Positions 7,553-40,188 of a stretch of 64,000 bases of DNA are shown here, one piece after another (the first letter of the stretch is position 1; each line of letters starts with the position of its first letter). This stretch comes from Coptis chinensis (taxonomy: Eukaryota > Streptophyta > Magnoliopsida > Ranunculales > Ranunculaceae). Made by a program: the position numbers and the translations under genes. The notes beneath the pieces are model-generated. The model saw nothing but the letters and a program-made list of their open reading frames with translations, was not told the DNA's origin and searched no databases. The stretch lies in contig CM027383.1 in NCBI GenBank assembly GCA_015680905.1, positions 84,229,001 through 84,293,000 of the forward strand. Reading direction: 5' to 3'.

Positions 7553-7556
7553 AATG

Positions 7557-13211: not shown

Positions 13212-13226
13212 AATTTTTTCCTCTCC

Positions 13227-14757: not shown

Positions 14758-14933
14758 TATAACTGCTATGCCAGCCTCTTCCTAGGCAAACTTGACCCTA
14801 TCGACGTGATCTTCTCCTCTTCCCCTATCCCAATATTCACTACCTCTATCTCGTCAAGCGTCTTGGGATCCGCCAACGCCTCATCACCCCCTTCCCAGAG
14901 GTGCACTATAACTGCTATGCCAGCCTCTTCCTA
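14636..14933. repeat. 149-bp tandem duplication inside pol
   Basis: Bases 14636-14784 and 14785-14933 are adjacent, nearly identical copies, each beginning GGCAAACTTGACCCTATCGA and ending CCAGCCTCTTCCTA. 149 is not a multiple of three, so the duplication shifts the frame between protease and reverse transcriptase. The near identity shows it arose recently. Confidence 0.95.
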
Positions 14934-15003
14934 GGGTTGGAAGTTTCTCCTTTTGACCCGCCAATCAAACGTTTCACGGTTCCTCTATGACTATTCTTGG
15001 CTA

Positions 15004-15273
15004 TTACCTGATCTCGTAGACCTCATACATGCCGGTAGGTGTGGGGAACCGTATCACTTGGTAATACGTAGATGGGACCGCCTTCATCTCATGAATCCAC
15101 CGCCTTCCCAAGATTGCATTATATTGTGAAGCCGCATCCACTACCATGAAGCGGGTGAAGATGGTCACCGGCCCCGCCGTCACGGGCAATAAGAGTTCCC
15201 CCATGGGCTCTGTCATATTCCCGTTAAATCCATACAAATTAGTCTTGCTGGAAGCGCGGTACGCTAGGATCAA
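15004..15273 (-). pseudogene. Tat protease, C-terminal half, out of frame
   Basis: Contains NLYGFNGNMTEPMGELLLPV, then FMVVDAASQYNAILGRRWIH, the typical C-terminal half of Tat-clade protease. It lies in another frame from the N-terminal half that ends the gag frame, so a frameshift at about 15240-15270 splits the enzyme. Confidence 0.8.
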
Positions 15274-16945: not shown

Positions 16946-16965
16946 TTCTAAGTTGCTCTTCTCTG

Positions 16966-16983
16966 TCCCCACAGACGACGCCA
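16966..16983 (-). other. Primer binding site of the Tat element
   Basis: On the minus strand, two bases after the 5' LTR, the sequence reads TGGCGTCGTCTGTGGGGA. It resembles the Asp-tRNA type primer sites of plant Gypsy elements, with mismatches; the tRNA assignment is tentative. Confidence 0.5.
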
Positions 16984-16985
16984 AA

Positions 16986-17355
16986 TGTATAGACCCCTAA
17001 TTCACCACTACACAAATGTCTCGCTCTCTAGTTCCCTCTTCCACCCAAATGTATGGACCCCGCTTTTTTCTCTTTCTTCTCTCTTTTTACTGTTCCTATT
17101 TCTCTCTTTCTCTCTTTCTCTCCTTCATTTTCTCCTTCATTTTCTCCACATCTTCTTCTTTTTATATTCCCTTTCTCTTCCTCGGGACCGTCCACCTGTC
17201 TTGTCATCCTACGACCCCGATGTCGACCGTACACTTGCCACCGTAGACTAGGGTTCCGCGGCCTTGATCCGCTGCTCCTCCTCATCACTGCATATGTTGC
17301 TCCCTATCAGTTGCACCGCGGACTTGGTCCAAGAGGTACACATCATACTATTACA
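16986..17355 (-). repeat. 5' LTR of the Tat element
   Basis: 370 bp, TG...CA, matching 7195-7552. About 12 bp longer because of an expanded CTTTCTCTC/TTCATTTTCTCC pyrimidine run. Followed by the target duplication ATATA (17356-17360). Confidence 0.95.
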
Positions 17356-19539
17356 ATATACTTAATTGAGTCAAGTTTTACAAATCAACAGAAAATACGA
17401 GAATATAGTTAGGAAGAACATCTTTTAAAATTGAACTATAGGAGAACAAAACTGATGATAATAAATATCTTTAATACTTATATAGTAGTTCAGCGACTGC
17501 AAAGAAATCAATCAAAATTTTTCCTTCCAGCTCGATGCTTACTTTATTGATCAGCACGACAGGACCTCTTGTGTGTTTGTTTCGTATGTATTAGTTCATA
17601 TCTACCAAAAATGAAGACAAGGAAGAAAAACATACTGAGGTCACAAGTTTTCCTGCTCGCGTCTTTGAAGGACTTATAATATTTGATAAACAGAAAGTGC
17701 CTAGAAAACCACTAACACTGACACTAAAATAAAATATTGTTTGATCCAGCATTCTAATTATCCAATTATTCATGATGAATATTTTGAATATTTAAAAACC
17801 AGAAAATTAAGTATAAGTACACAAACGCAAATTTCTTAAGTTTAGAGAAAATAGTAATTTTTTTTTTTTGTTTTTTCTCCATAAAAATTGAAATTTGACA
17901 TCTGTCTCAAATTTTAGACTGACTTTTACAATTTTGACCTCTTTTATTAGTCCCAACTAAAAAAACCAACTACCAACAAAAAAAAAGATACGAACTAAAT
18001 CAGTTACTAAAAGAGTAGTGGGCTAATCAAAATAACTAAAATTCATCCGAAATCTACAAAATTCCAATTAAAAGTGAGATGAATTTATGGAGAGACCAAA
18101 ACAATATAGAAAACATCAACTTCAAAAACGGAAAAAATGTATGTTGATTACAACTAATTTCAATACAGCTTTAACAATTTAAAATGCATCACTGATAATT
18201 TTGAATAACATGTTTAAACTTTGTTTGATGTAATTCAAATTGTGAAATTGTAAAAGGACAAATGATTTTTTTTTATAAGACAATTGTATTATTTGATTGC
18301 AGTATATCTTAGAGCAATACACACGCACTCTTGCCTGATGAGTGACATCGATTGACACACACACCTACAGTCTGCGCACATTAGATTTTTGTATTATTTA
18401 TTTGTAGAAAAAAATTGGCAGTTACAAATGAAAGGGTAAAAAAGAGAAATAAGAAGTTTTAAAAACAGTTAATACACTCAAAAAGTGAGAAATAAGAAGT
18501 TTTAAAAACAGTTAATACACTCAAAAAGTGACGTGTTGTTAAAATTGGAGTAGAATCAAAAGATAATATTGGTCTTTCTCTAAACAAAAAACACACTAAA
18601 GAAAGTGTCTAGAGCCCAATTTCTAGATTTAAAAACGGCCCAATTTCTAGATTTAAAAACGGGTGAGACATGGTGGCCCAGGAACTCTGGTTATTGCGGG
18701 GTAGTTTAGTGCGCGAAACACCTTGAATTAAGAAGCAAATTAGGGACACAGTTCTCTGCGAAAGAACTGAGCTAATAGTTGGCCAGCACATATGAAATCA
18801 AAATCTCACCAACCAACGTCATCAACAAAAATCATGCAAATGAACAAAGGTTATAGTGTTGCACGCTTAAACAGAAAATGAAAATATAAAAAGCATAACA
18901 CATATTTTGAGATTTGGATCTCTTGATGACGCGCGTCAACTTCCAATTGTTAATGTAATGCTGACTTACATTTCTAACACAATTTTTTCGTGTTTTATGC
19001 TAAGTCCAATGCGCACCAAACCACAATATAATAGTGCATAGACCACAATATAATGGTGGATAGAGTTAGCGGGTTGGGGTCTGGAGGCCAAATGATTTTT
19101 ATTGCACCCACCAGTGCTATAGGCGTATAGAAAATAAAAAAATCACAACTCTTAGCCGCCATTGACATAGGTGTGTAGGTGTCTGGGAAAAAAAATAAAA
19201 AAATAGAAATCAAAATTCTAGCCATCACTCCCGAAAGCGTATGCTAAATTAGTTTTTTTTTTTTTTTTTTTCTCCCCATTTTAGCCTTTCTCACATCTTT
19301 CTCTTTATTCCTCACCCAAAATAGTATGATATAATAGTAATTGTACAAACTAATTCCTTCAAAATAGCTTAAAATAATTTTGGTAGGGACACATTGTTCT
19401 AGCTGCTACTGTGAGTGGCAGGCAGAAATGTTGAACTAAAATTCTAGCCGTAGGGCAATTTCTGATCATTCATCTATAGTGTTAGTGTCAACCAAAACCA
19501 CAAGGAGGTATAAAAAATCTTTTCATTTCTTCAATATTC
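17356..19539. other. AT-rich intergenic DNA
   Basis: No supported gene, RNA or element. It holds two small tandem duplications: 43 bp at 18444-18529 and 24 bp at 18614-18661 (unit starting GCCCAATTTCTAGATTT), plus poly-A/T runs. Confidence 0.6.
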
Positions 19540-22500: not shown

Positions 22501-22970
22501 CAATGCCGTGCACAAGGCCTCAAACTTGCTGTGGATCATAGGTGCCTTAGAATTCAAGCCCAGACAAACTTTGCTACAGTTGTCTTGTATTTGAAGGACA
22601 AGGACAAACACCCATGACGCGCCAACCATCTAATGGGGGAGATTAATAGCTTAACAACACAATTACAAATGTTTACTCTCAAACATGTATTCCGAGAAGC
22701 GAACAAGTTGGCCGACATTTTGGCAAGAAATATATCATTCATAAGTTACGTGGTAATTATACATAGCTCTTTTTCAGAAGATGTACGGAAAATTGTGTAT
22801 GATGATGCCTCAAGCAAAATATATGTAAGACTCTAATCTATGTAACCAAATTAGTGCTTTCATTTTAATAAAATAAGGGTAAAAGACTTCTCAAAAACCT
22901 TGCTTGCCTTTCAAAAAATAATAAATAAATAAATAAATAAATAAATAAAAAATATATATATATATATCGG
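19540..22970 (+). mobile_element. 5'-truncated, decayed L1-type LINE
   Basis: Only the part downstream of the endonuclease remains. In order: a pre-RT region (GAWNIPVVGNLMFTFMKKLK at about 19570; LGDNNTTYFFNSIKVRR at about 19850), reverse transcriptase (DKAPDSDGFSALFFKAAW, then DYRPIACCNVIYK, RRIRQGGPMSPYLFVLVMDF, LSFDDDLIAF), a zf-RVT region (FWHHLVWFANRIPQHSFIVW, then CVLCWRERETKEHMFFQC) and the end of an RNase H (FREANKLADILARN). Many frameshifts and stops. The YADD-box position reads FDDD. It ends in a 3' tail of (AATA)n at about 22920-22948. Confidence 0.9.
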
Positions 22971-22977
22971 TTTGTCT

Positions 22978-24514
22978 AGGGTGCCACTCTTAGAGTGCCA
23001 CCCTTATCTCACTCTCCTCTTGAGCCGTCGGATCCGACCTCTAGATCTGAAGATCTCAATGAGGGTAAATATGTATTTTCCTCATCATCTTCTCTAAAAA
23101 AGAAAAAAAAAACCGATCTTCACCAAAAAAAGAGACCGATCTAACCAAAAAAAGAGACCAAGAGACTGATCTAACCAAAAAAAGAGACCGATCTAACCAA
23201 AAAAAGAGAGGGATCGACTAATCTGAGGGATCTACAAAAACAACCATATATTGCTTTGTCAGATTTGATTTCCATCTCGTGCGACTCTTCTTTTGCTGCG
23301 GTATGTGAACTTACTGGTCTAATTCACCACATCTAATTTAAGAAATGTTTTCCGTTTATGTTGTTAGGTTCTAAAAAGGTTATTTTTTGTTGCAGCGGTA
23401 TATTTGGTGGCTCAGTACGCTCGCGTTGAAATCAAAAGGATAGAAGCGGTACTGATACTTCCTTTTTCTGATAGCATTTCATATATCTTTAACTTATATT
23501 AAACTGAACCTTATTCGTAATAAAATTAAACCAGTAATATTCTTTTTTGTTTTAAGAATGTAAATTTGCTTATGAAGTGGATGTGATTTAACTTGCATCT
23601 ATGTCATATGACTAGAAGCAACAACTAATAACTGATAGAAATATTGGATTCGAGCATTTTGCTTACTGTATTATTTGGAAGATCCAAATGCAATATGACT
23701 AGAAGCAACAACTAACCTATCCAATATCCTTGAATACTCGACACCACCCCTATTTGTATTAGCTTTAGAGTCGTTTTAAGCTGCTTTGAAAATCGGCTAC
23801 TCTTATGCTTAGCGGTTCAAGGAGCTAAATGTGCTTAATTAGGTGTTGGTGCAAGTCCGATTAAAAGGAGCTAAATGTGTTTAATTAGGTGTTAGCATAT
23901 TTGATGAACTCTGTCGAGTTAGGTTAGTTAATCGAGTTTTGAACTCGGCCGAGTTCGTTTTGAACTCTAAATTGTCGAGTTCGTGAATTCTGTCGAAGTT
24001 TTGAATTGTCGAGTTTTGAACTCGTCGAGTTCTAAATTCTGTCAGAGTTCGGTGAACTCTGTCAGAGTTTTGAATTCGGTCAGAGTTTTGAACTCTGTCA
24101 GAGTTTTGAACTCTGTCAGAGTTCTAAATTCTGTCAGAGTTCGGTGAACTCTGTCAGAGTTTTAAATTCTGTCAGAGTTTTGAATTCTGTCAGAGTTTTG
24201 AACTCTGTCAGAGTTCGGTGACTTCTGTCAGAGTTTTGAACTCTGACAGAGTTCTAAATTTTGTTAGAGTTCGGTGAATTCTGTCAGAGTTTTGAACTCT
24301 GTCAGAGTTCGGTGAATTCTGTCAGAGTTTTGAACTCTGACAGAGTTCGGTGAAGTAGCATATTTGGTTAACTCTGTCAGAGTTCGGTGAACTCTGTCAG
24401 AGTTTCGATGTTTAAGTTATTTACACTGTTTATGTACATTGGGATTTTTGACTGTTTAAGTTATTTATATTTTTAATTTTTTCGATTTATAGAAATGGAG
24501 ACATAGACATCAAT
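22978..24514 (+). repeat. Left compound terminal inverted repeat
   Basis: Outer part (about 22978-23180) is nearly identical to the complement of 39950-40126, including AAAGAGACCGATCTAAC motifs repeated four times here. A spacer (about 23240-23890) has no counterpart at the other end. Then the palindrome array (23895-24420). Then about 95 bp matching the transposase leader, ending with ATGGAGACATAGACATCAAT at 24495-24514. That copy of the ORF start carries a stop at codon 4. Confidence 0.85.
23895..24420. repeat. Palindrome array, left end
   Basis: About 20-25 copies of the near-perfect 15-bp palindrome AACTCTG(T/A)CAGAGTT and variants (AATTCTGTCAGAGTT; GTCGAGTT forms at the outer side), separated alternately by TTTG or TTCTAA-like and CGGTG spacers. 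It gives a roughly 20-bp period. Same motif family as 38640-39690. Confidence 0.9.
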
Positions 24515-24593
24515 GTTATGTTTATCCAAGTTCAAAATAAATAAATCATTAAATCAAACAATGAAGTTATGAACTTATTGTCTCTCCTGTTGA

Positions 24594-26686
24594 TATCACT
24601 AGATTTTTATTTGATGCCATATCGACTGGAGTACTGCTTGCTTGATTCAAAATAAATATATAGCTCTGTTTCAGGTAACTGTTCTATCTTTCTATCTTTT
24701 TTTTTTTTATATATATAATGTTATGTTTGATTCAATTCTTTTGAATTCTAGACACCCATTTTATACTTTCCCTGTTGATATCACCCATTACGTTGATATC
24801 ACCCATTCTTAAAATGAAGTTAAGAATGCATGAAAACCAAAATAAAAGTTGAACCTAGCTAGTGGTCATCCATCTAACACAAGTTTCACAAGATTTCGAA
24901 GTATAACAAAATTTATATTTTTAGCAAGTATAGCAGATATATATAGATATCGTTCAGTAAGATCCACATCAAATGATATCGAAGTTTTGCATTCACCAAA
25001 CTCGGGAAGGATAAATCAGTTGATAATCGAGAGAAGTGAAGTTAGACAAGCTCTTTGTGACACCATTTAGAATGGTGTAATAGGAAGTAAATACAAGCAC
25101 AAACTAAGAGAAAACAAAGAACTTCGCTGCCCTATGGAAATCCACCAAAGGGATAAGAGTTGTGTTACTAGAACTCACCACTCTATGGAATCCACCAAAG
25201 AGATAAGAGTTGTTTCACCAAGAAGAACCACTTCTTCTCAATAAAAGTCCTATATCTTCATTCAAATACTGCTCTACTTCCATTACAAGTCTTAGAGAAT
25301 TTATAGCTAAATACAAACTTGGGATCTTGAAGAGACAAGCATTAAAACTATTCCTGATTTTCTTCTAAGTTCAAAGTCAAACTTGAATCTGAACAGGACG
25401 TTTCTCCATACATAACACACACCACTAGAAAGCTCATGAAGTCTAGTTTCCAACCAAATTCTGGTTAAGCAAAACAAAGGTTTTAGAGAAAGTTATGATC
25501 ATTTTGTCGTATGTTGTCAAACTGAACTGCCAATCCAAATTAGACTTATTTGGGCTATATCTTGGACTTTCGATTGAATGTTTCATCATCACTTTGGCTT
25601 ATCGCGAGGAGTCAATCTTGCTACTTGGGCTACTTCCTTCTCGAGAACGGTGAATAAAGCTAGGTACTACGAAAGTACAACAAACCCTTATGTGAACTAA
25701 TGACCAATTCATTGTCCCGAATCAAGCCAAAGCGTCTGTGGCTTTATATACAACCAATATACTTAGATGCTTATTGTGTTTTCAGTTAACCGATCGGCAC
25801 CAATACATAGTAAATCGAACACTTCAACGCCGGATAAACTCTCAAAGGTAACTAATCGAAGTTACTACTCTTCAAATTCTCATCGATTACTAGTTTATGG
25901 TACCGATCTCGGTCCAACTAAATTAAATCTTTAAGTTGTACAAAGTCACAAACCTTATTCGAAATATTTCTCAAAAAGCTAACCGAATCCAAAGTCTAAA
26001 TCTTCCAACAAAGATGTGATCAAGAGAAATGTAGAAACGATACCAAATTCAACATAGAGTTCATACAGATCGATCAAAGGTGAAAAGATGACAAGACACC
26101 ACTTGAGCACTAATTGACATCACATATATTATTTATTTGAGATATTTTCAGTAATGTAGGGTAGCATTCTAGCAAAGCGACCGACAGATTATAGCTGGCA
26201 TTCATGGCGAGAGGAAGGATATCATAGAACGAAAGATCCTTTTCACACACCAAATGTAAACACTCATTCTTTTATGTTAGTACATTATTAGTAAAGAAAA
26301 ACGTTTGTTAAGCAAAGTAGATTTAGGTAACTCACACATAGAGAACAAGAGAAATCCAATAGCAGATCCAACTAAGCAAACACCCCAAAAAATCTTATCC
26401 ACACAATACAATCTTGATACATAATATCCCACTATTTAGCAACAAAGTGCAGAAAATTGAGTTTTCCAAAGTCAGAGCTAAATACACTAATTAATAGAAG
26501 AGTTATTCAGTTTCCTTTTTCTCTTTTGTGTGTGTATGTGTATCACTAGATTTTTATTTGAGGCCATATCGACTGGAGTACTGCTTGCTTGATTCAAAAT
26601 AAATATATAGCTCTGTTTCAGGTAACTGTTCTATCTTTCTATCTTTTTTTTTTTTTTATATATATAATGTTATGTTTGATTCAATT
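24594..26686. repeat. Direct repeats bracketing about 1.8 kb
   Basis: Bases 24594-24737 and 26541-26686 are about 145-bp direct repeats, nearly identical (TATCACTAGATTTTTATTTG..., ending TATGTTTGATTCAATT), differing mainly in poly-T length and a T/G change. The 1.8 kb between them has no recognisable gene. Near 25090-25260 it contains two repeated phrases (TATGGAA(A)TCCACCAAAG(A/G)GATAAGAG) of the kind found in LTR-type repeats. Confidence 0.85.
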
Positions 26687-26739
26687 TAGTTTTTGAGTTA
26701 GAGACTTAAGATCGAGTATCGACAGTTGTTCCCCTTTGA

Positions 26740-27000
26740 TTAGGGGTGGTCATCGAGTCGGCGAGCGAAATCTTGGCATGCTCAGATTCGGCTCGTGAGT
26801 TTTCGAGTCGAGTTCGAGCCGAGGTCAAACTCAATGTCGAGCTCCATTTTGTGCTCAAACTCGACTCGATTTGAATTATAATTAGCTCGAGCTCGACTCG
26901 ACTCGACTCGACTCGTTTTACAAAACGAGCTTGAGTGAAGCTCGACCGCTTTCGAGCTCGAGACTCGTGAGTCATGAGCTTGCATCATCGGAAACGATGG
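26740..27000. repeat. Possible small hAT-like repeat
   Basis: Starts TAGGGGTGGTCATCGAGTCG near 26741 and is rich in alternating CTCGA/TCGAG motifs. Only one end is clear; the assignment rests on the TAGGGGTG start seen in other hAT-type MITEs in this window. Confidence 0.35.
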
Positions 27001-27089
27001 CATATATACTCAAAATTGTTGAATAAACCCCATTTTGTATGATTTAAGTACAAAAATTCCAAAAACGTAACCAAAGTCTGATTCTAAGT

Positions 27090-27800
27090 CACAGCTTAAC
27101 TGGTGCTTACACCGGCGGTTGTCGTTGCCTTAAAGTTACGAACTACAAGTAAAGAGAGAGTCCCCAGGGAACTTGATGAGGATTATATTCGTAATCCGGG
27201 GACCACATCATTTATGTACGCTCTCGGCCAAGAAGGGGTACTACCTCTCACAACATCCCTCAAGCGAGGGGTAGGTGGTAGTTTGGCTTAGCTTTACCCC
27301 CAACCCGTACCGAACTTATATCTAATTTAGGCAGGGGCCGGGTAGGTGCAGAAAGTCGTCTTTCGGGGACATGCTTTGTTGAAGACATCTCTATACCCAT
27401 TCAGGAGTGAAGGGCCTAGTAGGCTCCTCCTTGGAGAGATAAGTACTGATTGAGATAGGGCGCAGGTCCTTGTAGAATTGGTTGGGCGCAGGTCCTCGTA
27501 GCTAGGCGCATGAAGGATCGAATCTCTTCTTGTTGACAGACTTCTTCCCTGCTTCCTCACCCTAGGAGAGAGCAAGATCTTCCTCCTACAGGTAGGTTTA
27601 TAGGAAGTTAGGATAGATTCTAACCTATTAGATGTAGCCATCTGGTTCTTCCTGTAATCCAAGATTGCAACTATCGAAGAGCGTAAGAAAGGAAAAGAAG
27701 TAAGAAAGGGTATGCAAGCAAGGAGAATCTCTCTATCTTCCCTATAGTCTGTGTAGTCTGTAGCTTCATTTCCTTACTGCATCTATTCTAGAAGGAGATG
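27090..27800. other. Possible organelle-derived (mitochondrial-like) segment
   Basis: About 700 bp with clearly higher GC than its surroundings and a texture reminiscent of plant mitochondrial intergenic DNA (for example CCCCAGGGAACTTGATGAGG; CTCTCGGCCAAGAAGGGGTA). It holds a minus-strand open frame (27327-27662) of no recognised family. This is an impression from composition and phrasing; no gene was identified. The rest to 28560 is AT-rich and featureless. Confidence 0.25.
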
Positions 27801-28689
27801 CAAGCTACACTAACAAATCTAAATGTTTAGATTTCAACAAATTTCATAATACCTCCACGATTTCTTTGAACTATATCATGTATGGCGTACATTTTTATTC
27901 CAATAAGTACTAATTTGTTTGCTTAAACAAAACACTTATCTTTCAAGTAAGTAAGAAAATAGATCAACATAATCAGGTAATTGATAGAGAACCAACAAAC
28001 AAACATGCTAGGAGAATATGTCGTCAAATTAAAATGATAGAATTGAATAAGATGGCCAAGAGGAGCTATATATATATGTGTGTGATTCAAACCAAATTTA
28101 GAGTTTTAATAATTATAGTTGTAGTTATCCTTTAGTAAACTTAGGTTGAACCATTAGTAAGATAAAACCTAAACTAGTATAATTTTTTGGGATATGTTAA
28201 TAGCCTTTGATTCAATTCTTTTAGTTCCATATGTATTTTACAACCTAAAGAAGACTACTTGTTTGATTGCAAGTAAAACACGAAGGATACAAGACAATTA
28301 ATTATTCACCAACATGAAGAACTTTCAATAATGTACAACAACTCCCGTCCAATGATTTTAAAGTTTTCATCCTCATATCCTCAAATAATAGTGTACGAGG
28401 GTGAGGAAAACCAATTTGATTTGATGTCCAATGGTAGAGAAATAAACTGAGCCAGTTTAAGTAGGTTGGTTTGAAAAAACGGCAAATAAAAGTCAACAAA
28501 GTGGAGCAACTACTTCAATTGGTTTAAATCAATTTTTTGCAAACTTAAACTGTTAACTTCCTTCACAAAAAAAAAAAAAAAAAGTGGATGAAAGGAGGAG
28601 ACAAAAAAACTAGTCTCAAATGGACTATACAAAGAAGCACTATCACTCTACACTCAATTCCACAAAACCAACACTATCCCAACAAATTT

Positions 28690-29490
28690 CATATATCCAT
28701 CACTATTCAAAGTATGTGGAAAGCTTAAAACATCCCCGTGTTGTAGTTTTGACTGCACATCATCAAGTCTTTTGTTCTGTGCAGAAGACAACAACAGTCT
28801 TATGTGTTTTGATGATTCTGATAATGGAGTTGCTGGAGCAATAAACTATGAAGAAAATATTTGGCATTCACAAAACTTTAATCAAAATACTAGCCTTTTT
28901 TTGTTTTCTTTGCATAGTGATGAGTGTGTTGGGTTAATGGTTGAGAAAGAATCTGAACATATGCCTAGACATGATTATTTGGCAAGGTTGAAAGGTGGGG
29001 ATTTAGATTTGGGTTTGAGAATGGAGGCTGTTGAATGGATTTCCAAGGTTGGTTCTGGGAAATGTTTTTTTTTTTTTTTTTTTATGAAATGGGATTTCTT
29101 TTCTATTAGATTTACGATTTATCTGAATTTGGAACCAATTGATATAATTTTATGTTCTAATTTTTGAGATTTAAGTGTTCACTGAAAAGGCTTTTCGTTT
29201 TATTTTTGACTTTTGACTTTTCAGTGTTTTTCTCAAATGTTTTACTTTGAGAAATTGGATTTTGGGTTTTTTTTGTTTTACTTTTTAATTCATGATGAGT
29301 AATTTGTAATGATTATTGTGAGTTGGATTTACTGGGATCTTATTTGCACACATGAGCAAGATTTTTGCAATTTTGAGTAGGTTACTTTTTTCTCATTAGA
29401 TGTCTAATGTGCTGCCCTTGATGTTAACAGGTTCACGCTCATTACAGCTTTGGACCTTTGAGTGTCTATTTATCAATTAGATTGGGTTTT
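28690..29490 (+). pseudogene. Captured 5' fragment of a D-type cyclin gene
   Basis: Reads like the start of a CYCD2/4-type G1 cyclin. From about 28750 the frame gives DCTSSSLLFCAEDNNSLMCF, then an acidic stretch. Next comes SDECVGLMVEKESEHMPRHD, then YLARLKGGDLDLGLRMEAVE and WISKV, the N-terminal edge of the cyclin box. The LxCxE retinoblastoma-binding motif of active D cyclins is not intact: the corresponding position reads LLFCAED. An intron starts near 29055 and ends with CAG at about 29430. The next exon gives VHAHYSFGPLSVYLSIRLG, then homology stops. The rest of the cyclin box is missing and no start codon is clear in frame, so this is a truncated copy inside the Mutator-like element. 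Confidence 0.82.
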
Positions 29491-29669
29491 TTTTGTTAGT
29501 GTGTGGAGGGGGGATTTAATAGAGGAGTATAGTTTGCCTAGATACATGCACACCTTAGATATAGATTGGCATGCACACACCTTATTTCGTTCTTTGTTTT
29601 TCACGTTGGTATTGCAACAATTTGAATTAGTTGAATGTCTTATTTTTAACTCCTATTTATTTTGTAGCA

Positions 29670-32112
29670 ATGCCTCGAACAAAGAATCTGAATGTGAAGA
29701 ATGCAGCAAAAAGTGTTTTCACGGGTGCTAAGAAGTTGTTAGGTGGGGGGAGTAGTAGTTCGGTCGCTGATGAGGAGCCCGAGAAAAAAAGAGGAAGGAG
29801 AACAACCACTTCGCATCGGTTAAGTAGGGGATCGGAAAGCGGATGATCCCAGTAATGTTGTAAGTGGTGTAGAGTTAGGAAATCAAAAGAGAAGAAAGGG
29901 GACAGAGATGAGTGATGTAGATGTAGATGTAGATGTAGATGTAGATGTAGATGTAGATGTAGATGACCATGACGTAAATATGGATCGTGGGAAGAGTGTA
30001 GTTCTAAGTCATGCTGATAGTGAAGAAGAGGGTGTTGATGATGCAGAAGAGGAGACTGACGAGGAGGAAGAGGACACGGAGGAGGAGGAGGAGGAGGATG
30101 ACGAGGATGACGAGGAAGTCCATGTACCTGTACCTCCAGTGAATATTGTGAGAAAGTCTAACAATGACTTGGAGTTCAAGAGAGGTGTTTATGGAGGTGG
30201 CCCTTGTGTGTCACATCTATTGTATGACTATCAAAGCACGGGCTCGCGATGTTTGGGAGGGGCGGTAATATTATCATATAGTGTCTATTAGTATTTAAAT
30301 TTTGTATTCTAAACTTGTGCATACATTAATACTAAGTTTTTGTTGTTTTTTAGCGGGCGAGGGGGTGTTGAAGTGCCATGGGCACCTCAACAAGTTGGTA
30401 CAATGGGATATCGAGGGAGAGTGTTCGACCGTTCTACTTTTCACGCGTGGAGCTTCAAAGGACCGGCTTATGTGCTCGGTCTTAGGTGTATACAGGCATC
30501 GATCCCCCGTGTTGGTCTCTGCGTTTGTGGAGAGGTGGCATCCGAGAGACCAACACGTTTCATATGCCGTGGGGCGAGATGACAATCACGCGTTGGGACG
30601 ATGTTTCCCAACTCTTAGGAGTTCCGATCGAGGCAAAGCAAAGGATCGGGGACACCGATTTGACCTTGGAACAGAAAAAAGACTTCTCCACAAAAATCTT
30701 GGCATACCCATGGATAAGATAGATCACGGAGATGAAATCCAATAAGTTCACTTCCAAAGTTAGGATGGATTTCTTGATGAAGCGGTTTCTTTGGGAAGGT
30801 AAGAGATGAAGATTTACGTGATGAAAATGGGGTTGTTGTGAAGAAGCGCCAACCCAAAAAGAGGTGCAGTTTCTTTGTGAGAGCTTATCCGTTATTTTTC
30901 TTTGGATGTACCGCCTTCACCCGACATCGCCCTGAACTGCAGTTCCCGTTTGTTATCCGAGACTGCTTTTTGAAATTTGCCGAGATCGAGAGACTATCGT
31001 GGGGTGCCTTTACCGGGCTTACTTGTACGGGGTCTTGGGACCGCCACAAGTGCCAAGGTGAAGGGTGTTTCGTGGCTATTTCACTCTCCTACGTATTAGT
31101 TTTTGTTTTTCTTTTCAATGTTAATTTTATCTATCTATTACAATATTAACTTCGGTGTCTATATTAATGTAGGCATGGATTTATGAGTACTTCCTTAGTT
31201 AACCAAGCATACCCAAATGAGGACTATCATTTGAGCATGTCCCGTGCTAATAGGTACTCGCCATACTCGATCTTTTTATGCTAGCACAACAAATGCATTG
31301 AAGTATACCCGAGCCACCATTGATAATATGACTTGTATCGATGTAAGCATTTTTGTATGTAAATAGTTTTATTTATTAATTAATATTATTAGTATGTGAT
31401 TAATGATTAATTTCCTCGATCATATGCTATTTGACAGTTGAATGGTATCCCTATGTTGAAGTCCGAGCTACACGGCCGTGGATGAAATAGCATTTTTCGA
31501 GGGATTTATATGCTTTCTTGATAATGTCGAAAGCGATTACAATGTTTGCGAGGGTTGTCGTCGATTGGGTCATATGCAGTTTGTACCCTCGGATCCCCAA
31601 AAACCAAAGACCTCGACGAACTACTTCGGACGCTGGTATGATGTGAAATTTAATATTAGGCGTCTTCCCTATCGGAGTAATTGGCGTAATCACTTGATTC
31701 AACTTGAACAACGCGGACCCATTCCATCTTATCCATGGGAGTGTGTTAGTAGATACATGAGTTGGTGCGAAAACAATAGTCATATTCGAATGATAAACCC
31801 TGATCATCTTAGTCACTACTCCCTACAGAGTCCTTCCAATCAATAATCTGGTGAGTTAATATCTTACAACGTTAATTTTTGTTTTGTTTTGTTTTGTTTT
31901 GGTATTTTATAAATGTAAATGTATATACTAATGTAGTTTTGTGTTTTAATTTTGACAGCACCCCGTCGTCGATGAAATTTCTCGCTTGCTCAATCAAGGC
32001 CTGCAATTGGGTGGATCATGCGATTCCAGAGGATGCACGTAACGAGTTCATGGAGGCATACAATTTGACCCGGTGCAAGTTCATTGGCGGACGATATCGT
32101 GAAGGAGCATAG
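29670..32112 (+). pseudogene. Plant mobile domain (PMD) gene, frameshifted
   Basis: Exon 1 starts at 29670 (MPRTKNLNVKNAAKSVFTGA) with a basic stretch, then, after a frameshift near 29840, a long acidic region including a (DV)n run from a GATGTA microsatellite (about 29910-29965) and Glu/Asp-rich repeats. The PMD domain, shared by MAIN/MAIL1 proteins and by plant transposons, follows after an intron near 30267-30352: CHGHLNKLVQWDI; VLVSAFVERWHP; TNTFHMPWGEMTITRWDDVS then QLLGVPIEA; CSFFVRAYPLFFFGCTAFTR; IERLSWGAFTG; AWIYEYF at about 31175; and C-terminal blocks at 31478-31846 and 31969-32112. Several frameshifts and a stop after AWIYEYFLS mean this copy cannot make the full protein. It lies plus-strand inside the Mutator-like element. 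Confidence 0.78.
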
Positions 32113-32227
32113 GATTTAGGTATGTTGAGTTTGGTTAGTTTAGGGTTTAGGGTTTAGTGGTTAGTTTGGTTAGTTTACCTCCTTTTATCTTGTGTTGGGA
32201 TGAGTGTTGGAAATGGAAATGGTTTGT

Positions 32228-32347
32228 TTGTGTTAGTTGAGATGATGCGGGGAAGTGTTTATTGGCATTTGAGATGATCTGTGGTTTTGCTTTACTTTTC
32301 AGTTTGTGTTAGTTGAGATGATGCGGGGAGTGTTTATTGGCATTTGT
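32228..32347. repeat. Short duplicated phrase after the PMD gene
   Basis: A phrase of about 40 bp (GTTAGTTGAGATGATGCGGG ... TTTATTGGCATTT) occurs at about 32236-32270 and 32307-32347, separated by about 35 bp. Confidence 0.7.
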
Positions 32348-32585
32348 CTTTCTTTGTTCTTTTGATTGATCATGACTTAAGTTCAAGAGTTTTCCAGTCA
32401 ATGAGGTTTCTAGATTTGGTGTTGGATTTGACATATGTGGTACTATTTATACTGATTCATGTGTTAGTTGGATTTGTTAGATTGGATCTTCTTTACAAGC
32501 CGATTGTACTTGGTGAGTAAATATGAGTACATGTTGTGAGGATTTTAAAGTTTGAAGTGATTAACTTTCTTCTTTTTCATTGCAG

Positions 32586-33765
32586 CTTGTGGCCATATAT
32601 CTTGTTTTTGGTGTGTCCACTGGGCAATGAGTGGAATGGGAGAGTCTCATTGTCCTATATGTAGGTGTCCATATAGTCACTTCCCTAGTATCTGTCAATT
32701 GCTTCATTTTTTGCTCTTGAAAATGTACCCTGTGGCCTACAAGAGAAGGGAAAAACAAATGTTAGGTAATTTTTAACATATAAGCTATTCATGTTTTCTA
32801 TTTTTCATCTGTATGCTTTTTAGTACCTGTAGTAACATATAAGCAAAGAGCCACAATAATATTCATCCATTGCTTTTCTGTTTGTCTGCGATTGCCGGTT
32901 GCCCTTGATAATTGCTAAAATTGTGTGAAATCAACATAAGTTGGATCAAATTGGTAGTTTTATTATTATTATTGTTGTTTTGTAGAATGGATTATAAAAA
33001 CACAAATTGTTGTAGAACCTCTTGTGAACAATACACGATTATTACACCAATGATTATATAGTTATATCATTATCCTAGGTTAGTCAAGCTTTTCTAGTTT
33101 TATTTGATCCGAAAGTAATTCTATTACTAAGATTTATTTGTCCCGATGTCTTTCCTTCTACAGAAGAAGAAAAGAGGCGAGGCTTCTTCTCACCTCGACT
33201 TGGTGACAATGTGTTGAGGGCACATAGTTGTGAGGAATCAAATTGTCCGGACTCCAAAACATTCTCCAAAGATGTGTTTCCAAGCTGCCCCATATGGTAG
33301 CACTTGTTCCAATGGGAAAATAAATACCTCTAGTACTGTGGAGAAGCAAACTCCTGACATGTTGGCTCATGCAAATGCTTCATTACTTTCTGCGGAAGCT
33401 CATTCTGGTTCGGAAGTGACAAATACTTTAGCCGTTGAAGAAAGTAGTATCTTAGAAAATGATCTGAAGGATGGAATATGCAAGCTTTTTTCAAGCAGTG
33501 ATGTACTTTGTGTTGCATGCAAACAACTGCTATTCCGACCTGCAGTTCTTAATTGTGGGCATGGTAGGAACTTAGTTATGTAAAGAATCGTTATATATAC
33601 CAGTGTACTACAATGACATGTATCATGTTGAAAGTCAAATCATCCTAATTTATCTCTTTTTGCAGTCTATTGTCAATCTTGTATAGTTATACCAGTAAAT
33701 GAAGCTCTTAGATGTCAACTTTGCCAAAGTTCACATCCTAAAGGAATACCGATTCAATGGCTCTT
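32586..33765 (+). pseudogene. PRT1: Captured fragment of the PRT1 N-end-rule E3 ubiquitin ligase gene
   Basis: Three exons with intact splice sites remain. 32586-32756: ACGHISCFWCVHWAMSG, then SHCPICRCPYSHFPSICQLL and HFLLLKMYPVAYKRREKQML, the second half of the first RING finger of PRT1. After an intron, exon from about 33164: EEEKRRGFFSPRLGD, and after a frameshift near 33290, SDVLCVACKQLLFRPAVLNC plus GHG, the start of the second RING. Third exon from about 33666: VYCQSCIVIPVNEALRCQLC then QSSHPKGIP, completing that RING. The order RING-linker-RING and the KMYPVAYKRRE phrase identify PRT1, which in Arabidopsis recognises proteins with aromatic N-termini. The first exon and the ZZ domain are missing, and a frameshift plus stop lies in the linker, so it is a broken copy. 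Confidence 0.82.
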
Positions 33766-33984
33766 CTTGTGCTCTCCGACAATTTGCGCATTTTAATTTG
33801 TCACATCGAAGTATCTCTATTAATAATCTAATGCAACATTGTCCCAATGTTATCTCTAATGTCCCAATGTTATCTCTATTAGTATCTCTAATGCGAACAC
33901 AAAAATCCCAATGTTATTTACCAAAACACAAAAATCTAATGCAATTACGCAATGTTTTTGCCAAAACACAAAAGATCTATTTTT

Positions 33985-35165
33985 TTGCCTCTTGAACGGT
34001 GTGGCCATATCGTTTGGATTTGAACTTGCAAAAAAAAAATGCGCGTTCTGTTCGGACTTTGTCCCAAACGGCATGGCGGTCTGTTTGGACTTTGAACTTA
34101 AGGTCAAAATGGCGTGGTTGTTTGGACTTTGTCCCAAACGGCATGGCCACACCGTTAAACGGTGTGGCCATGCCGTTGGGACAAAGTCCAAACGGTTCGC
34201 CATGCCGTTTGGGACAAAGTCAACAGACACCATTTTTTGCAAGTTCAAAGTCAAGCGGCATGGCTTGGCCGTTGGCCTTAGTACCAAACGGTGTGGCCAT
34301 GCCGTTTTTGAGACTAAGGCCAAACGGTCCGCCATGCCGTTTGGACTTTGAACTTGCAAAAAAAATGGCGTGTCTGTTTGGACTTTGTCCCCAAACGGGC
34401 ATGGCGGACCGTTTGGACTTTGTCCCAAAACGGCATGGCCACACCGCTTGACACTAAGGCCAAACGGTGTGGCCATGCCGTTTGGGACAAAGTCCAAACG
34501 GTCCGCCATGCCGTTTGGACTTTGAACTTGCAAAAAATGGCGCGTCTGTTTGGACTTTGTCCCAAACGGCATGGCCGCACCGTTTGGCCTTAGTTCCAAA
34601 CGGTGTGGCCATGCCGTTTGGGACAAAGTCAAACGGTTCGCCATGCCGTTTGGACTTTGAACTTGCAAAAAATGGTGTGTCTGTTTTTGGACTTTGTCCC
34701 AAACGGCATGGCGAACCGTTTGGACTTAGTCCCAACGCGGCATGGCCACACCGTTTGGCCTTAGTACCAAACGGTGTGGCCATGCCGTTTGGGACAAAGT
34801 CCAAACAGACACACCATTTTTTTTGCAAGTTCAAAGTCCAAACGGCATGGTCGTAACCGCTTGGCCTTAGTTCCAAACGGTGTGGCCATGCCGCTTTGAG
34901 ACTAAGGCCAAACGGTTCCAAGCCATGTCGTTTGGACTTTGAACTTGCAAAAAATAGAGTGTCTGTTTGGACTTTGTCCCCAAACGGCGGCATGGCCAAA
35001 CCGTTTGGACTTAGTCCCAAACGGCATGGCCACACCGTTTGGTACTAAGGCCAAACGGTGTGGCCATGCCGTTTGGGACTAAGTCCAAACAGTTTGGCCA
35101 TGCCGTTTGGGACAAAGTCCAAACAGACACGCCATTTTTTTTATCCAAATTCAAATCCAAACGAT
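33985..35165. repeat. Array of long hairpin-forming repeats
   Basis: About 1.2 kb built from a few shuffled modules in both orientations: CCGTTTGGGACAAAGTCCAAACGG-type palindromes, GGCATGGCCACACCGTTTGG and its complement, and GGACTTTGAACTTGCAAAAAATGG linkers with a GTGTCTGTTT tag. Adjacent modules form long hairpins: 34738-34787 is a 20-bp arm, an 8-base loop and the complementary arm. Similar hairpins are at about 34141-34173, 34431-34485, 34568-34615 and 35028-35075. Open frames of up to 270 codons run through the array on both strands; they are a by-product of the repeats. Confidence 0.9.
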
Positions 35166-36235
35166 ATCGCCGTACTAAGTCCATATCGTTGATGTTGATG
35201 TTTTGGCAATTTATCAGTTTGGTTTGTTTGTGTTGATGTTCATTGATGATCATATGAGTTGAGGTAAATTTGTTGTTGACAAACGTTGGCATTATACTGG
35301 TGGTATAGTATCTGCATCAATACATCATATCAACTTACGGAACAAAATTGCAAGTGGGCACGCTTGTGTAACAACAGTAACATTTATAATAAGCACATCA
35401 AAATGCTTTATGCAATCCCAAATATTATTGTTCTCAGATACAACATTTAAGCACATCAGAATGAATTAGCAACAAGTATAGCCTGCCTGCACCTAGCTTT
35501 GGCTTGTTCAAGCCTTTCACTCCAAGTTTCAGCTCTCTTCAACTTCTCCACCTTCTTTCAACACTTCTGCTTCTTCTCTCGCTCTTTTCACGACAATTTC
35601 TCCCGTTATAGCTAATAACTCAATTTTGACGCACTTTCTTCGAATGGTGCATAGTCAAGGTGGCAGTGATACTGTGGCATCTTGTGGAACTGTAGCAGTA
35701 AGAAACATAACCGCAGAGAATGATGAAAAGACTGAAGATCGATTGATGCAAAGTCGAGGGGCTGGAAACGAACAGATGAGTAGGCAGTATTTTTACCTAA
35801 AGCAAAGCTTTGCCTCCAGATTCTCCATTTCTCCTTGAGCCATACTTTTCTTTTCTACAATATCAATGAGATTAGAACTCAGTCTAATTAAACTCCCCAA
35901 ATGTAACCTAAACCAGCAATATTAAAATTTGAAAATAAAAAGGGAGAAAGAAGTTATCAAAAAAAGCACCGGTCTATCATTATGATGTTTCCTATCTAGA
36001 GCCTAGCTAGCAGACAACATTAGATACTATCCAATGGACATAATGATGCAATGGAACACAACCCTCACCGCAGTTCAACTTAACAACACTTGATAAAACT
36101 CTAACAAGGCTGCCATATCTAAACCACTCTTAACAAGTCCAGACATCAATGAAGTCCATGACGCGCAGATAAAAATATCATTAGAACTAGTGAACATTTA
36201 GAATCAAAGAGTTTTGAATAAATCTATACTTACAA
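35166..36235. other. Internal non-coding region of the Mutator-like element
   Basis: No clear gene. At 35540-35625 the minus strand reads RKCVK...GEIVVKRAREEAEV, weakly similar to the zinc-knuckle segment of the transposase at about 36250-36320, so this may be a diverged duplicate or a remnant of its 3' end. A splice-donor-like GTAAGTATAG follows the zinc knuckle at about 36232 on the minus strand. Confidence 0.4.
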
Positions 36236-36239
36236 TCGC

Positions 36240-38545
36240 CAGATTACGATATTTTTTTCTCCCGACAATTTCTCGAGTCATGGTTAGCAATCATTCCACA
36301 TTTGTGACACTTTCTTCCCCGAATTGTTTTGGGCTATCTCTTTGGGGATTTCCATCTATCCGCTTTCTTCTTCCCCTCCCTTTTGTTTGAGAAATGTTGG
36401 GATTCAAAATCAATAGCTGAAATAAAGACCGAATTAAAATAAATATTTATATCAAATTAAACACCGAATTAAACACTAAATTTATATCAAATTAAACATT
36501 CAAATAAAAAAAAACTGTGATGTATTAACCGGCGTATCGAAGGCTCTGCAATCGAGGCTCTGCAACTTCTTCGCCTCTCCTTTGTAGGAAGTCTCATTAA
36601 ACTTTGAAATTTCAATAGCCATTTCACCAATCTTTTCAATAAAATATGAATAACCCTCAAAAGTATCGCGACGATCGTAAGCCACTTGAGAAGCAACCTT
36701 GATAGAATGAGCCACTCTCAAAGGTTCATTTGAGACATTCCCCACCACAAATCCAAAGATCAAACTCCGCTCTATAAGTGTTAGACTTTTGCATCCACCG
36801 CGTCAATCTAAAATGGTTTGGAATCTCTTCAATCTCAGAATGCGCATAAAACCTTTAAGATATGACCACAAAGCAAACCCATAAACTGAAAGTACTTGCA
36901 TTCGCAGCAGCCTCTAAGGTTCCTCTATCGAAACTCACTCTCCAAACTGAATTCTTCAAATGGTCTCTCCATTTCACCATGTAGCTTCCGGTTCCATACC
37001 CGCCAATTTGTTCCCCATCAATTTTGTACTCCATCTTTGCCTTTTCTAGTTGCTCTTTAAATTTATTGAATATTGAGATCGTTATAGACCTTCGCGGCAT
37101 GCATAAGGATGAAAGCATCGTTAGGCACAATCCGGAACTATGCTTTCGGTGCAAGAATCGAATCTCTTTCTTTCCTAGCAAGCAAAGCCAAAGACTTCTC
37201 ATTACCATGTACAAACCGCATAAAGCGTAGTCGTCCGAATTGACAAACCGGTCATAATGAGCATTCATCGATTCACTTCGACCCGATCGTGTGCATACCA
37301 AAGAAAAAGGTGCCACCGAGATAACAAGGAACCCATTTCTCCCGCATTGAATATATCTCTCAAACCAAGGATTTTCGGACAACTCATACTTCTCAATGAT
37401 TGTACACCATCTTCTCTCAAAATCAACAATCCTATACGAAAAAGAAATAGTGTTCTTCAACTTCGCCACCAATGTCTCAAATTTGGTAAATGACATCTTC
37501 TCTTGAATTTCTGCATAATATGCCAAAGACGATGCGATGACGAAGTATTAGGAAACACTTTGGCAATGGCTGCTGTCATCGCTCTATCCTGGTCAGTGAT
37601 GATTGCAGTTGGCGCACGACCACCCATGGCTGCAAGCCAGGCCTTAAATAGCCATATGAATGTATCTTCTGTCTCATCAAGCAACAATGCGCAACCAAAC
37701 TGAATCGACTGATAATGATGGTTGACTCCAGTAAAAGGGGCAAAAGGCATGGAATATGCATTGGTACGATATGTGGTATCAAAAGACACAACATCTCCGA
37801 AATATTCATACTGGCATCGAGACCTCCCATGAACCCAGAAAAAAGTTCACCGCATCCCATTTTCATCTAAATCAATAAGCGTAATAGAACCGGGATCCTC
37901 GGACTCTTCTCGCATAAAATATTGCGGCCGCGGCAGTTGCATCACCTTCTTTAGGCATCTTTCCGGTCAAACCATAATAATGGTTCCAACAATCTTTCCA
38001 GGTAAACCCAACTTCCTCTCCATGGAAAACGGATGCCACTTTCCCAACAGATAAACCTGTTATCACTAAATATCTCGGTCAAACTTCTTCCGCCTGGGCA
38101 TATGTTTGTTAGTTTTCATGCAAATTCTCTTCGATGGGGTCACCAGACCGTGACTATGGTCATTATGAGCAACGCTGACCTCATATATCTCTTCATGCAT
38201 TCTTTTCTTAATACGAATTCTAGCTTGGCAACCACACCGGATAGTTGATGTATTTCTTGATCGGACTTCATCTCTCTTAGGAGTCTTAACCCCTTCACGT
38301 GAGCAAACCAGTAAACAACCACTAACCAAATCCACCTGATTTTGTTGCTTAGAAGTCGTCCGAACACGAGTCTCAAATCCCTCTTGTTGACCATACTCTT
38401 TGTAATAAGTCTTTGCCTCGTCAATACTTGTAAAAGTCATTCCTATATAAGGAGCAGCTAATGTTTGCGTGCCTTGAACAGGGGCTTTAGTAGACGAAGA
38501 CCCAACTACGTCTTCTTCGATATTGATTGATGTCTCTGTCTCCAT
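36240..38545 (-). pseudogene. FAR1/FHY3-type Mutator-like transposase, frameshifted
   Basis: Read on the minus strand from ATG 38545. FAR1 DNA-binding domain of the WRKY-GCM1 zinc type: TFTSIDEAKTYYKEYGQQEG, CLLVCSREG, STIRCGCQARIRIKK, HNDHSHGLVTP. Then SVFHGEEVGFTWKDCWNHYY, and the MULE catalytic domain: first Asp in MSFDTTYRTNAYSMPFAPFT (about 37780), second Asp in AIITDQDRAM (about 37590), catalytic Glu in SGRSESMNAHYDRF (about 37260). The C-terminal part follows (RVAHSIKVASQVAYDRRDTF), then a CCHC knuckle RKCHKCGMIANHDSRNCR near 36270. Frameshifts at about 38066, 37870-37790, 37510, 36855 and 36310. The order and residues match transposases of the lineage from which FAR1/FHY3 were domesticated; this copy is inactive as it stands. 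Confidence 0.88.
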
Positions 38546-40126
38546 TTCTATAAATCGAAAAAATTAAAAATATAAATAACTTAAACAAATCAAAAATCCC
38601 AATGTACATAAACAAAGGTAAATAACTTAAACATCGAAACTCGACAGAGTTAACCAAATATGCTACTTCATCAACTCGCCGAGTTCAAAACTCGACGAGT
38701 TCACCGAATATGCTAGTTCACCGAACTCTGAAGTTCACCGAACTCTGACAGAGTTCAAAACTCTGACAAAGTTCACCGAATATGTTAGTTCACCGAACTC
38801 TGACAGAGTTCAAAACTCGACAGAGTTCACGAACTCGACGAGTTTCAAAACTCGAAAAGAATACGGCATGAAGAATACGACGAGTTCACCTAACTCCGAA
38901 AGAGTTCAAAACTCGGCGTATCACGGCATGAAGAATACGACAGAGTTCAAAACTCTGACAGAGTTCACCGAATATGCTACTTCACCGAACTCTGATAGAG
39001 TTCATCGAACTCGACGAGTTCAAAACTCGACAAAATACGGCATGAAGAATACGGCCAGAGTTCACGAACTCGAAAGAGTTTTGAACTCGACCGTATCATC
39101 TGACGAGTTCAAAACTTCGGCAGAGTTCACCGAATATGCTACTTCAACGAACTCCGGCGAGTTCAAAACTCTGACAGAATACGGCATGAAGAATACGACA
39201 GAGTTCACCGAACTCTAAAAGAGTTCAAAACTCTGACAGAATACAACATGAAGAATACGACAGAGTTCACCGAACTCTGAAAGAGTTCAAAACTCTGACA
39301 GAGTTCAACGAACTCTGACAGAATACGGCATGAAGAATACGACAGAGTTCAAAACTCTGACAGAGTCAAAGTTCACCGAATATGATACTTCATCAACTCC
39401 CGACGAGTTCAAAACTCTGACGAATCACGGCATGAAGAATACGACGAGTTCACCGAACTCGAAAGAGTTTTGAACTCGACGTAATCACGACGAGTTCAAA
39501 ACTCGGCAGAGTTCACCGAATATGCTATTTCAACTAACTCGACAGAGTTCAAAACTCTGAAAGAGTTCAAAACTCTGACAGAATACGGCATGAAGAAGAA
39601 TACGACAGAGTTCACCGAACTCTGACAGAGTTCAAAACTCTGACAGAATACGGCATGAAGAATACGACAGAGTTCACCGAAATTGTCGCCGTCTTTAAAC
39701 GAGGGTATTAATCATAACTATAATCATAGCAACCTAAATTAAATCAAAATTCAAGTTTTTATGGTATAATGACAATCCAAGTGTCAATTAAAGCATTATT
39801 AATAGGCAAGCACCATAACCAAAAGTGCACTATAGTTGAAGTGCCAAATGATACCTGTCAGAGAAGAAGAAACCAAATGAAGAAACCTAATTGCCAAATG
39901 ATGAGAAGAAGAAGCCGAGAGAGCCGTAGAGAGAGAGAACTTGAATTTCGGTTTTTTTTTTGTTAGATCGGTCTCTTTTTTTGGTGAAGATCGGTTTTTT
40001 TTTTTTTTAGAGAATATGATGAGGAAAATACATATTTACCCTCATTGAGATCTTCAGATCTAGAGGTCGGATCCGACGGCTCAAGAGGAGAGTGAGATAA
40101 GGGTGGCACTCTAAGAGTGGCACCCT
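38526..40126 (-). repeat. Right compound terminal inverted repeat
   Basis: Inverted counterpart of 22978-24514. From outside in: the 175-200 bp outer TIR (about 39950-40126), a spacer of about 260 bp unlike the left one (39690-39950), the palindrome array (38640-39690), and about 95 bp of transposase leader running into the ATG at 38545. The leader segment is nearly identical to 24415-24514, so the duplicated end includes the transposase promoter region. Confidence 0.85.
38640..39690. repeat. Palindrome array, right end
   Basis: About 1.05 kb of GAGTTCACCGAACTCTGACAGAGTT-type units, shown here shortened: core palindromes AACTCTGACAGAGTT and AACTCGACGAGTT with spacers CACCG and CAAA. A higher-order tag (AATACGGCATGAAGAATACG) recurs roughly every 90-200 bp, as does ACCGAATATGCTACTTCA. 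It is the same motif family as 23895-24420 in the opposite orientation. Confidence 0.9.
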
Positions 40127-40136
40127 GCATAAAACC

Positions 40137-40138
<2 letters not shown>

Positions 40139-40188
<50 letters not shown>
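40139..40188. repeat. (AT)n microsatellite
   Basis: About 24 AT repeats between the right end of the Mutator-like element and the fold-back MITE. Both elements appear to have used TA-rich target DNA. Confidence 0.9.

Follow-up and report, generated by a model that had tools for sequence, protein, structure and literature searches.

Background and comparison with described elements

Pack-MULEs, or transduplicating MULEs, are Mutator-like elements (MULEs) that are bounded by terminal inverted repeats (TIRs) and contain intron-bearing pieces of host genes (PMC2528002, PMC3310237, PMC6431247), and those of the first report are mostly 1–2 kb and at most 7 kb long and rely on a transposase supplied in trans (PMC6431247). 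Here we describe a stretch of 64,000 nucleotides from Coptis chinensis (contig C7, positions 84229001–84293000; hereafter the window), in which we recognize a 17.2-kb element with the same TIR-bounded layout and host gene pieces. The carrier differs from Pack-MULEs in possessing a transposase gene together with a plant mobile domain (PMD) gene, and the members of its family are mostly 15–29 kb long. Our comparison with described systems covers parts of the cited texts.

An original prediction, made from the sequence of the window alone, had called the element far larger than typical MULEs of a few kb. A length of 17 kb is not unprecedented, as the grapevine MULE families of 14–18 kb illustrate (Mutavine-1, 17.7 kb; Mutavine-18, 16.2 kb; Jitvine-2, 14.4 kb; PMC2528002, Table 4). 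The large grapevine MULEs resemble the Coptis element in size and in having a transposase, and some carry ULP1 as an extra gene, whereas section 8 of that paper describes no PMD, microsatellite targeting or stepwise capture (PMC2528002). KAONASHI and ULP1 MULEs likewise bear a further host-derived gene, which however encodes a ULP1 protease domain and not a PMD (PMC2528002, PMC13317346). MuTAnT of Medicago and SaTar of guayule and rice also have their ends in TA microsatellites, with target site duplications (TSDs) of 9–10 bp where readable, and are found joined end to end across a microsatellite, as is seen here at C1:50612.2 kb; they differ in being mostly 0.2–1.9 kb long, with autonomous copies of about 5 kb (PMC4486113, PMC5907723). 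The words "captured" and "gene fragment" are absent from the SaTar paper (PMC5907723). PMD-bearing MULEs occur in grasses and Amborella, where the PMD is fused to the transposase, whereas here it forms a separate gene on the other strand (PMC5418596); an anti-silencing role of MULE-borne PMDs is a speculation of the respective authors (PMC5418596, PMC8616336).

Singly, large transposase-bearing MULEs (PMC2528002), gene capture (PMC2528002, PMC13317346), TA-microsatellite targeting (PMC4486113, PMC5907723) and PMDs on MULEs (PMC5418596) have thus been published. In the open-access literature searched, which leaves subscription papers outside, we did not meet all of these traits in one family, a PMD as a separate opposite-strand MULE gene, or a series of captures by replacement together with the displaced DNA, and the text of the TIR sequence was not found there either.

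A 17.2-kb element with long terminal inverted repeats and its genomic copies

The window contains two facing inverted ends (22952–23153 against the complement of 40154–39954) that are 95% identical, the 111 bp inward from AGGGTG being the same in both, in agreement with the near-identical inverted ends about 17 kb apart that had been predicted. With a length of about 186 bp they qualify as the long TIRs of a MULE, and a third TIR copy is missing from the 64-kb window. At the family level the terminus reads CGGTTTGTCT–AGGGTGCC. An exact CGGTTTGTCT precedes the motif named in the original prediction in 15 of 20 ends fetched from the genome, and at least one base within CGGTTTGTCT deviates in the other five (L015, L016, L017, L018 and L023). 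Since the fetched ends define the family terminus, the element extends from 22968 to 40138 and not, as initially proposed, from 22967 to 40139. Its parts are as follows (W, window copy; B–J, nine further fetched loci; K, M and N, further copies).

22952..22967, (AT)8 flank, AT microsatellite that forms the left target site
22968..23153, plus strand, left TIR, starting CGGTTTGTCT AGGGTGCCACTC
23154..23900, plus strand, left subterminal region, in W, B, C, D, E and F, absent from G, H, I and J
23973..24405, subterminal tandem array of GAGTTC-rich units
24405..24514, plus strand, transposase leader with start codon, repeated here in inverted orientation (two matches in 8 of 9 copies and a single match in J)
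24515..27807, plus strand, native left interior
27808..29474, plus strand, captured block 1, which occupies slot 1 of W, B, C, D and F and replaces about 1.23 kb of native DNA
28345..28457, plus strand, piece matching C6:54275990 at 86% (about 110 bp)
28454..28733, plus strand, PPR gene piece of 280 bp, comprising the 5' flank and the first codons
28745..29479, plus strand, cyclin D piece with exon 1, intron 1 and the beginning of exon 2
29670..32112, plus strand, PMD gene of the core, limits set by eye
32484..33752, plus strand, captured block 2 (slot 2), fragment of a PRT1-like RING gene with introns
33995..35175, internal tandem array, in 8 of 9 copies
35175..36500, minus strand, native region downstream of the SWIM part of the transposase, with a CCHC-like motif seen by eye only
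36500..38545, minus strand, gene for the FAR1-MULE-SWIM transposase, with reading frames interrupted in the assembly
38673..39681, right subterminal tandem array
39690..39950, right subterminal unique segment, 95–100% identity between the window and nine copies
39954..40138, minus strand, right TIR
40139..40188, (AT)25 flank, right target site

We searched the genome (935.6 Mb in 116 contigs, of which C1–C9 measure 85–125 Mb each) with the left end and obtained at least 46 matches (40 of 484 candidates scored), indicative of multiple dispersed copies with the same TIR. Facing pairs of ends are present at eight of the nine fetched loci (B–I), 8.0, 15.0, 15.9, 17.7, 19.2, 19.6, 25.2 and 29.1 kb apart, and the interiors of the fetched copies are colinear with the window, as expected of the one large composite element that had been proposed; an arrangement in which the TIRs always flank separate smaller elements was looked for among these copies and did not appear. 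Both PMD and transposase occur in eight of the nine, the ninth, H, being an 8-kb copy with an internal deletion. Copy E holds about 15 kb of extra DNA in slot 1 and copy I about 8–9 kb inside the PMD gene, and pol-like frames were seen by eye in these enlarged copies. Within the native left interior lies a direct repeat (24594–24737 and 26541–26686), and about 160–180 bp present in D, G, H, I and J are absent from W at 27185–27191. We therefore read 22968–40138 as a single 17.2-kb copy from a family of giant Mutator-like elements that has amplified recently, and to this reading as the full best explanation we assign a probability of about 90%.

Several observations weigh against it. The two TIR matches of copy J stand in direct and not facing order and have equal flanking words, which is probably due to a tandem duplication. 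The outer 12 bp of the right end of the window (CTGGTTTTATGC) were found in none of the 20 fetched ends, and in a later alignment only the two ends of copy F extended into them. The TSD of the window copy itself, which in a MULE should measure 8–11 bp, is masked by AT repeats and cannot be read. An empty site was not found, though no search aimed at one was made. About 540 bp of captured block 1 (27808–28344) are without a match outside the element in a search that skips very common words. The left edge of the PRT1-like piece lies at 32484 in W and C and at about 32579–32585 in B, K, M, N (where the piece is split in two) and F (which has part of it), and these differing left edges may stem from one capture with a shared loss or from several events. 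Finally, the longest transposase frame among the window and the copies is 290 aa (copy J), which leaves activity unproven. In both PMD and transposase, variation between copies is spread about evenly over codon positions 1, 2 and 3, and this comparison gave no signal of selection on either gene, which error-like noise could mask.

Transposase and PMD genes form the core of the family

The predicted FAR1-type MULE transposase next to the right end is borne out by Pfam matches in the window to FAR1 (7e-16) and MULE (PF10551, 9e-30); MULE reaches 7e-34 in copy C, and SWIM was detected in copy J (3.9e-5). A FAR1-type N terminus, MULE and SWIM together make this a FAR1-type MULE by domain content, a type that we take to be tied to Jittery-like MULEs. 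Copy H retains a mere remnant of the gene. Pfam searches with a minus-strand open reading frame at 27330–27773 and with 35500–35835 yielded nothing useful, and a presumed remnant of the transposase C-terminus at 25.1 kb, noticed by eye, was dropped, as it was among none of the 60 matches listed.

The PMD gene was recognized by Pfam in one window exon at 2.3e-8, slightly under the gathering score, and in a single frame of copy C at 1.5e-42. It lies on the plus strand and the transposase gene on the minus strand, so that each core gene reads inward from its end. Since eight of the nine copies contain it, the PMD gene is part of the family core and not cargo of the window copy; hence the proposed combination of a transposase with captured genes stands, except that the PMD was not a capture of this copy. 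A search of the genome with the PMD DNA gave 1223 candidates, of which 40 were scored. Apart from the window itself these are 88–93% alike; 35 of the 40 cover the full query, three do so nearly (1–2422, 11–2448 and 1–2443), and the remaining two lack the 5' part, one starting at 114 with a separate 1–44 beside it and the other at 705. For at least 11 of the 40, an end that faces inward is located no more than 25 kb away, with the list of ends taken from 40 scored candidates.

What the PMD contributes can be read in two ways, between which we see no preference. Tentatively, it may aid the element against host silencing. It may just as possibly be neutral cargo without a role in transposition, which would agree with the lack of a codon-position bias between copies and with the very large number of PMD domains in the genome anyway (3773 first-look candidates, 117 scored). 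Against neutrality speak the position of the PMD at the same place in eight of nine copies and in both subfamilies, and the predominance of full-length or nearly full-length loci among those scored in the DNA search. The family in any case adds an example of a PMD kept as a separate gene in a MULE family, which bears on the proposal of counter-silencing. Beyond the family, PMD-bearing loci outside its known copies are abundant among the 117 scored, of which one (C1:50621264, copy C) matches a known family copy by coordinates.

Differences between copies cluster at CG and CHG sites

As assembled, the transposase and PMD frames of the window are interrupted by apparent frameshifts, and we compared the copies with each other in these regions. 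Pairwise identity amounts to 91–96% for the PMD and 92–95% for the transposase, with 33–76 gap events per pair. In BLAST comparisons with W, the PMD region showed 64–114 mismatches and 70–98 gap openings (seven copies with the whole region) and the transposase 65–91 mismatches and 41–73 gap openings (eight copies). Mismatches and single-base gaps cluster at CG and CHG sites throughout window positions 29670–38545 and in B–J. Substitutions of A/T amount to 9.5–9.6% next to such sites against 0.6–1.0% at a distance of at least 8 nt, and deletions start at 1.8–2.8% of positions next to them against about 0.2–0.3% elsewhere, a contrast of about 12-fold for the PMD and 7-fold for the transposase. 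Of the changes at CG/CHG sites themselves, 49–62% are C-to-T or G-to-A. More than 4 nt away from these sites, the copies differ by 0.3–1.2% across slot 1 and the left interior, and by 0.5–3.9% across the PMD, 35175–36500 and the transposase.

These differences are likeliest to be base-calling errors at methylated cytosines that went uncorrected in near-identical repeats; the contrast may in part also reflect misalignment and true deamination. An earlier reading of the frameshifts outright as decay or shared ancestral defects was dropped after the clustering had been found. A rival reading is that transposase and PMD have truly decayed, all sampled copies are dead, and they were moved earlier by an unseen partner. 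We consider this unlikely, even though the longest transposase frame in the window and eight copies has the above-mentioned 290 aa and H holds a remnant, the frames of the PMD are likewise short (its gene has introns, so that an uninterrupted frame would not be expected), and a majority-rule sequence is broken as well. Against decay speak the crowding of substitutions and deletions beside CG/CHG sites and a share of only 49–62% C-to-T or G-to-A changes at these sites. A pair of gypsy long terminal repeats (LTRs) in the window, a single and small control with 23 mismatches in 360 sites, displayed a contrast of 2.2-fold (9.3% near, 4.3% far) and one gap.

The captured pieces give a divided answer. 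PRT1-like pieces differ from their candidate donor by 4.6–13.9% near CG/CHG sites and by 0.9–2.7% far from them in W, B, C and K, which argues against decay; the short piece of copy F shows 0/27 near and 1/121 far. The cyclin piece of W (0.68% near, 0.76% far) and the PPR piece (0/18 near, 6/258 far) are without such a contrast to their donors, so that the error pattern is not uniform, and this favors decay. Three other cyclin copies differ from W by 3.8–5.7% near and 2.5–3.3% far. The cyclin piece of W also counts against base-calling error as such, as do the higher divergence of PMD and transposase than of the left interior even far from CG/CHG sites and the lack of any transposase frame above 290 aa in any copy. 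While the original prediction was correct in noting a transposase gene, the autonomy of the window copy is hence not readable from frames that are broken as assembled and differ in an error-like manner at CG/CHG sites. The CG/CHG clustering may be usable as a readout of DNA methylation in this assembly.

Host gene pieces replaced native DNA in two slots

What is known of how DNA transposons capture genes comes mostly from the finished products. In this family, sister copies display the states before, between and after two captures along with the displaced DNA, candidate donors and junctions, which makes repair by replacement versus insertion directly testable. Host gene pieces between MULE ends with candidate donors elsewhere are what characterizes a Pack-MULE, while non-autonomy for want of a transposase gene does not apply here, as such a gene is present. 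The predicted plus-strand cyclin D and PRT1-like pieces were found again, but at least three host genes contributed instead of two, since a PPR gene also did so.

The spliced cyclin D exons match Cyclin_N at 4e-5, slightly over the cut-off, and the candidate donor at C6:29.25 Mb differs from W in 5 of 672 aligned bases. This donor (L049:3181–3852, C6:29249680) lacks several segments of 9–20 bp that the captured copies have, and shows hardly any substitutions. For the PPR piece the candidate donor at C5:65.91 Mb contains a 633-aa open frame in which PPR and E-motif matches were obtained. The PRT1-like piece encodes half a RING (6e-4, below the cut-off); PRT1 is the name that we presume for the gene, and a matching gene was found on C5, where C5:98443811–98445060 is the candidate donor (96%) and C5:98014714 a second match (94%). 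Away from CG/CHG sites, W diverges from its donors by 0.76% for cyclin D, 0.87% for PRT1 and 2.3% for PPR.

In copies without a capture, the slots hold other DNA that is mutually conserved. Between the edges of slot 1, I and J enclose about 1.23 kb that is 96% alike and partly common to E and G, and which is the ancestral content. D, G, I and J have 0.52–0.58 kb of native DNA in slot 2, and this is replaced where the PRT1-like piece sits. A tree of nine copies is star-like with weak inner branches (support 0.38–0.85), and the order of capture is therefore based on block structure. In copy D the cyclin block is present and slot 2 is native. Copies K (at C2:14.13 Mb) and M (at C8:11.66 Mb) contain the PRT1 piece and lack 25461–29446, in place of which they have about 310 bp of other DNA; both retain W 29447–29474, the last 28 nt of the cyclin block, followed by native DNA (39 of 39 bases match from 29447). 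The state of copy D and the 28-nt scar in K and M together show, with a reservation on the left edge of the PRT1 piece, the order of events: most likely the cyclin block came first and the PRT1 piece second, and K and M would have lost most of the former. The replacement of about 310 bp is common to K and M (L057:9278–9587 and L056:978–1287).

Starting from the element, its copies, target, candidate donors and the replacement as observed, the following course can be proposed. A DDE-type FAR1/MULE/SWIM transposase from the window or a sister copy would recognize the ends of about 186 bp and paste the element into AT microsatellites, where about 9 bp of the target would be duplicated. One lineage most likely first took up a chain of pieces that ends in the PPR 5' end joined to cyclin D exons, and later the PRT1-like piece, each in place of an internal segment, and the composite element continued transposing after the captures. 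For the captures themselves we give an even chance to breaks inside the element that were repaired from ectopic templates with template switches, with which the replacement of native DNA and the short microhomology, an overlap of AATTA at one junction (29475), are in keeping. That the cyclin, PPR and PRT1 pieces entered instead as smaller nested mobile elements, be it a Pack-MULE, a Helitron or another, is improbable: such elements do carry gene pieces (PMC13317346, PMC2528002), and three partial cyclin copies elsewhere have common sharp edges, but the blocks substitute about 1.23 and 0.55 kb of native DNA and are not additions, one junction has the AATTA overlap, and inverted ends are missing from the junctions by eye. 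The three partial copies (L051, L052 and L053 on C95, C1 and C2) comprise cyclin exon 1 (W 28828–29156, 93–96%) with shared edges and are perhaps another capture.

A far-reaching version of the story would be a self-equipping transposon, in which the PMD counters silencing, the promoter and start codon of the PPR gene, fused in frame to the N terminus of cyclin D, yield a protein that titrates RBR and favors S phase, and PRT1 is a further acquisition under test; if true, the fusion would let transposition coincide with a chance to amplify. We hold this to be very improbable. The N terminus of the cyclin D piece contains LFCAE, presumably a retinoblastoma-binding motif of the LxCxE type. As assembled, the PPR–cyclin junction keeps the frame in B, C and F but not in W and D, and a frame open from the PPR ATG to the end of the cyclin exon is found in none of these five copies, the longest having 88 aa.

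Element arms and target sites

A second inverted block (about 24400–24514 against 38640–38526) places a transposase leader and start codon on each arm, so that the arms are homologous over about 1.5 kb with gaps, namely arrays and unmatched stretches. Of 22 ends, 19 directly adjoin a run of alternating A and T that is 8 nt or longer (20 fetched ends, several of which belong to the same elements, and the two of the window), compared with 47 such runs at 46400 window positions outside the element, and TA microsatellites are thus the target. The exceptions are L015, which has the run but a changed terminus, and two ends with shorter runs, L018 with 4 nt and L023 with 7 nt. In copy I, TATTATATA on both flanks is likely a 9-bp target duplication, provided that the first base on the left is a changed C; it is one pair of AT-only letters seen by eye, for which a chance match is possible. 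Two separate MULEs of the same family in opposite orientation with host DNA between them would explain the leader on both arms, the lack of a readable TSD beside the window ends and the presence of just two ends in the window, but this is practically untenable given the same interior between facing ends at eight other loci, the doubled leader in eight of nine copies and the differing sequences beyond the AT runs, which disfavor copies made by segmental duplication. Two unrelated MULEs side by side are excluded by the colinear copies with facing ends.

At L011 (C1:50612090–50612490), two element ends face each other across a single AT run, like in SaTar arrays. At L025 and L026 (C2:13.944 and 13.962 Mb), ends of the same direction lie 18 kb apart with equal flanking sequence, which suggests a tandem duplication of the locus. 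The motif of the original prediction at 22978–23004 is an imperfect palindrome, AGGGTGCCACTC TTA GAGTGCCACCCT, by eye, and a hairpin is possible near the end. Outside the element, the window harbors a Gypsy-like element at 7194–17356, with long gag- and pol-like frames seen by eye and end stretches that are 92% alike, and a LINE at 50155–53913 with an open frame of 1253 aa (Exo_endo_phos, RVT_1, zf-RVT).

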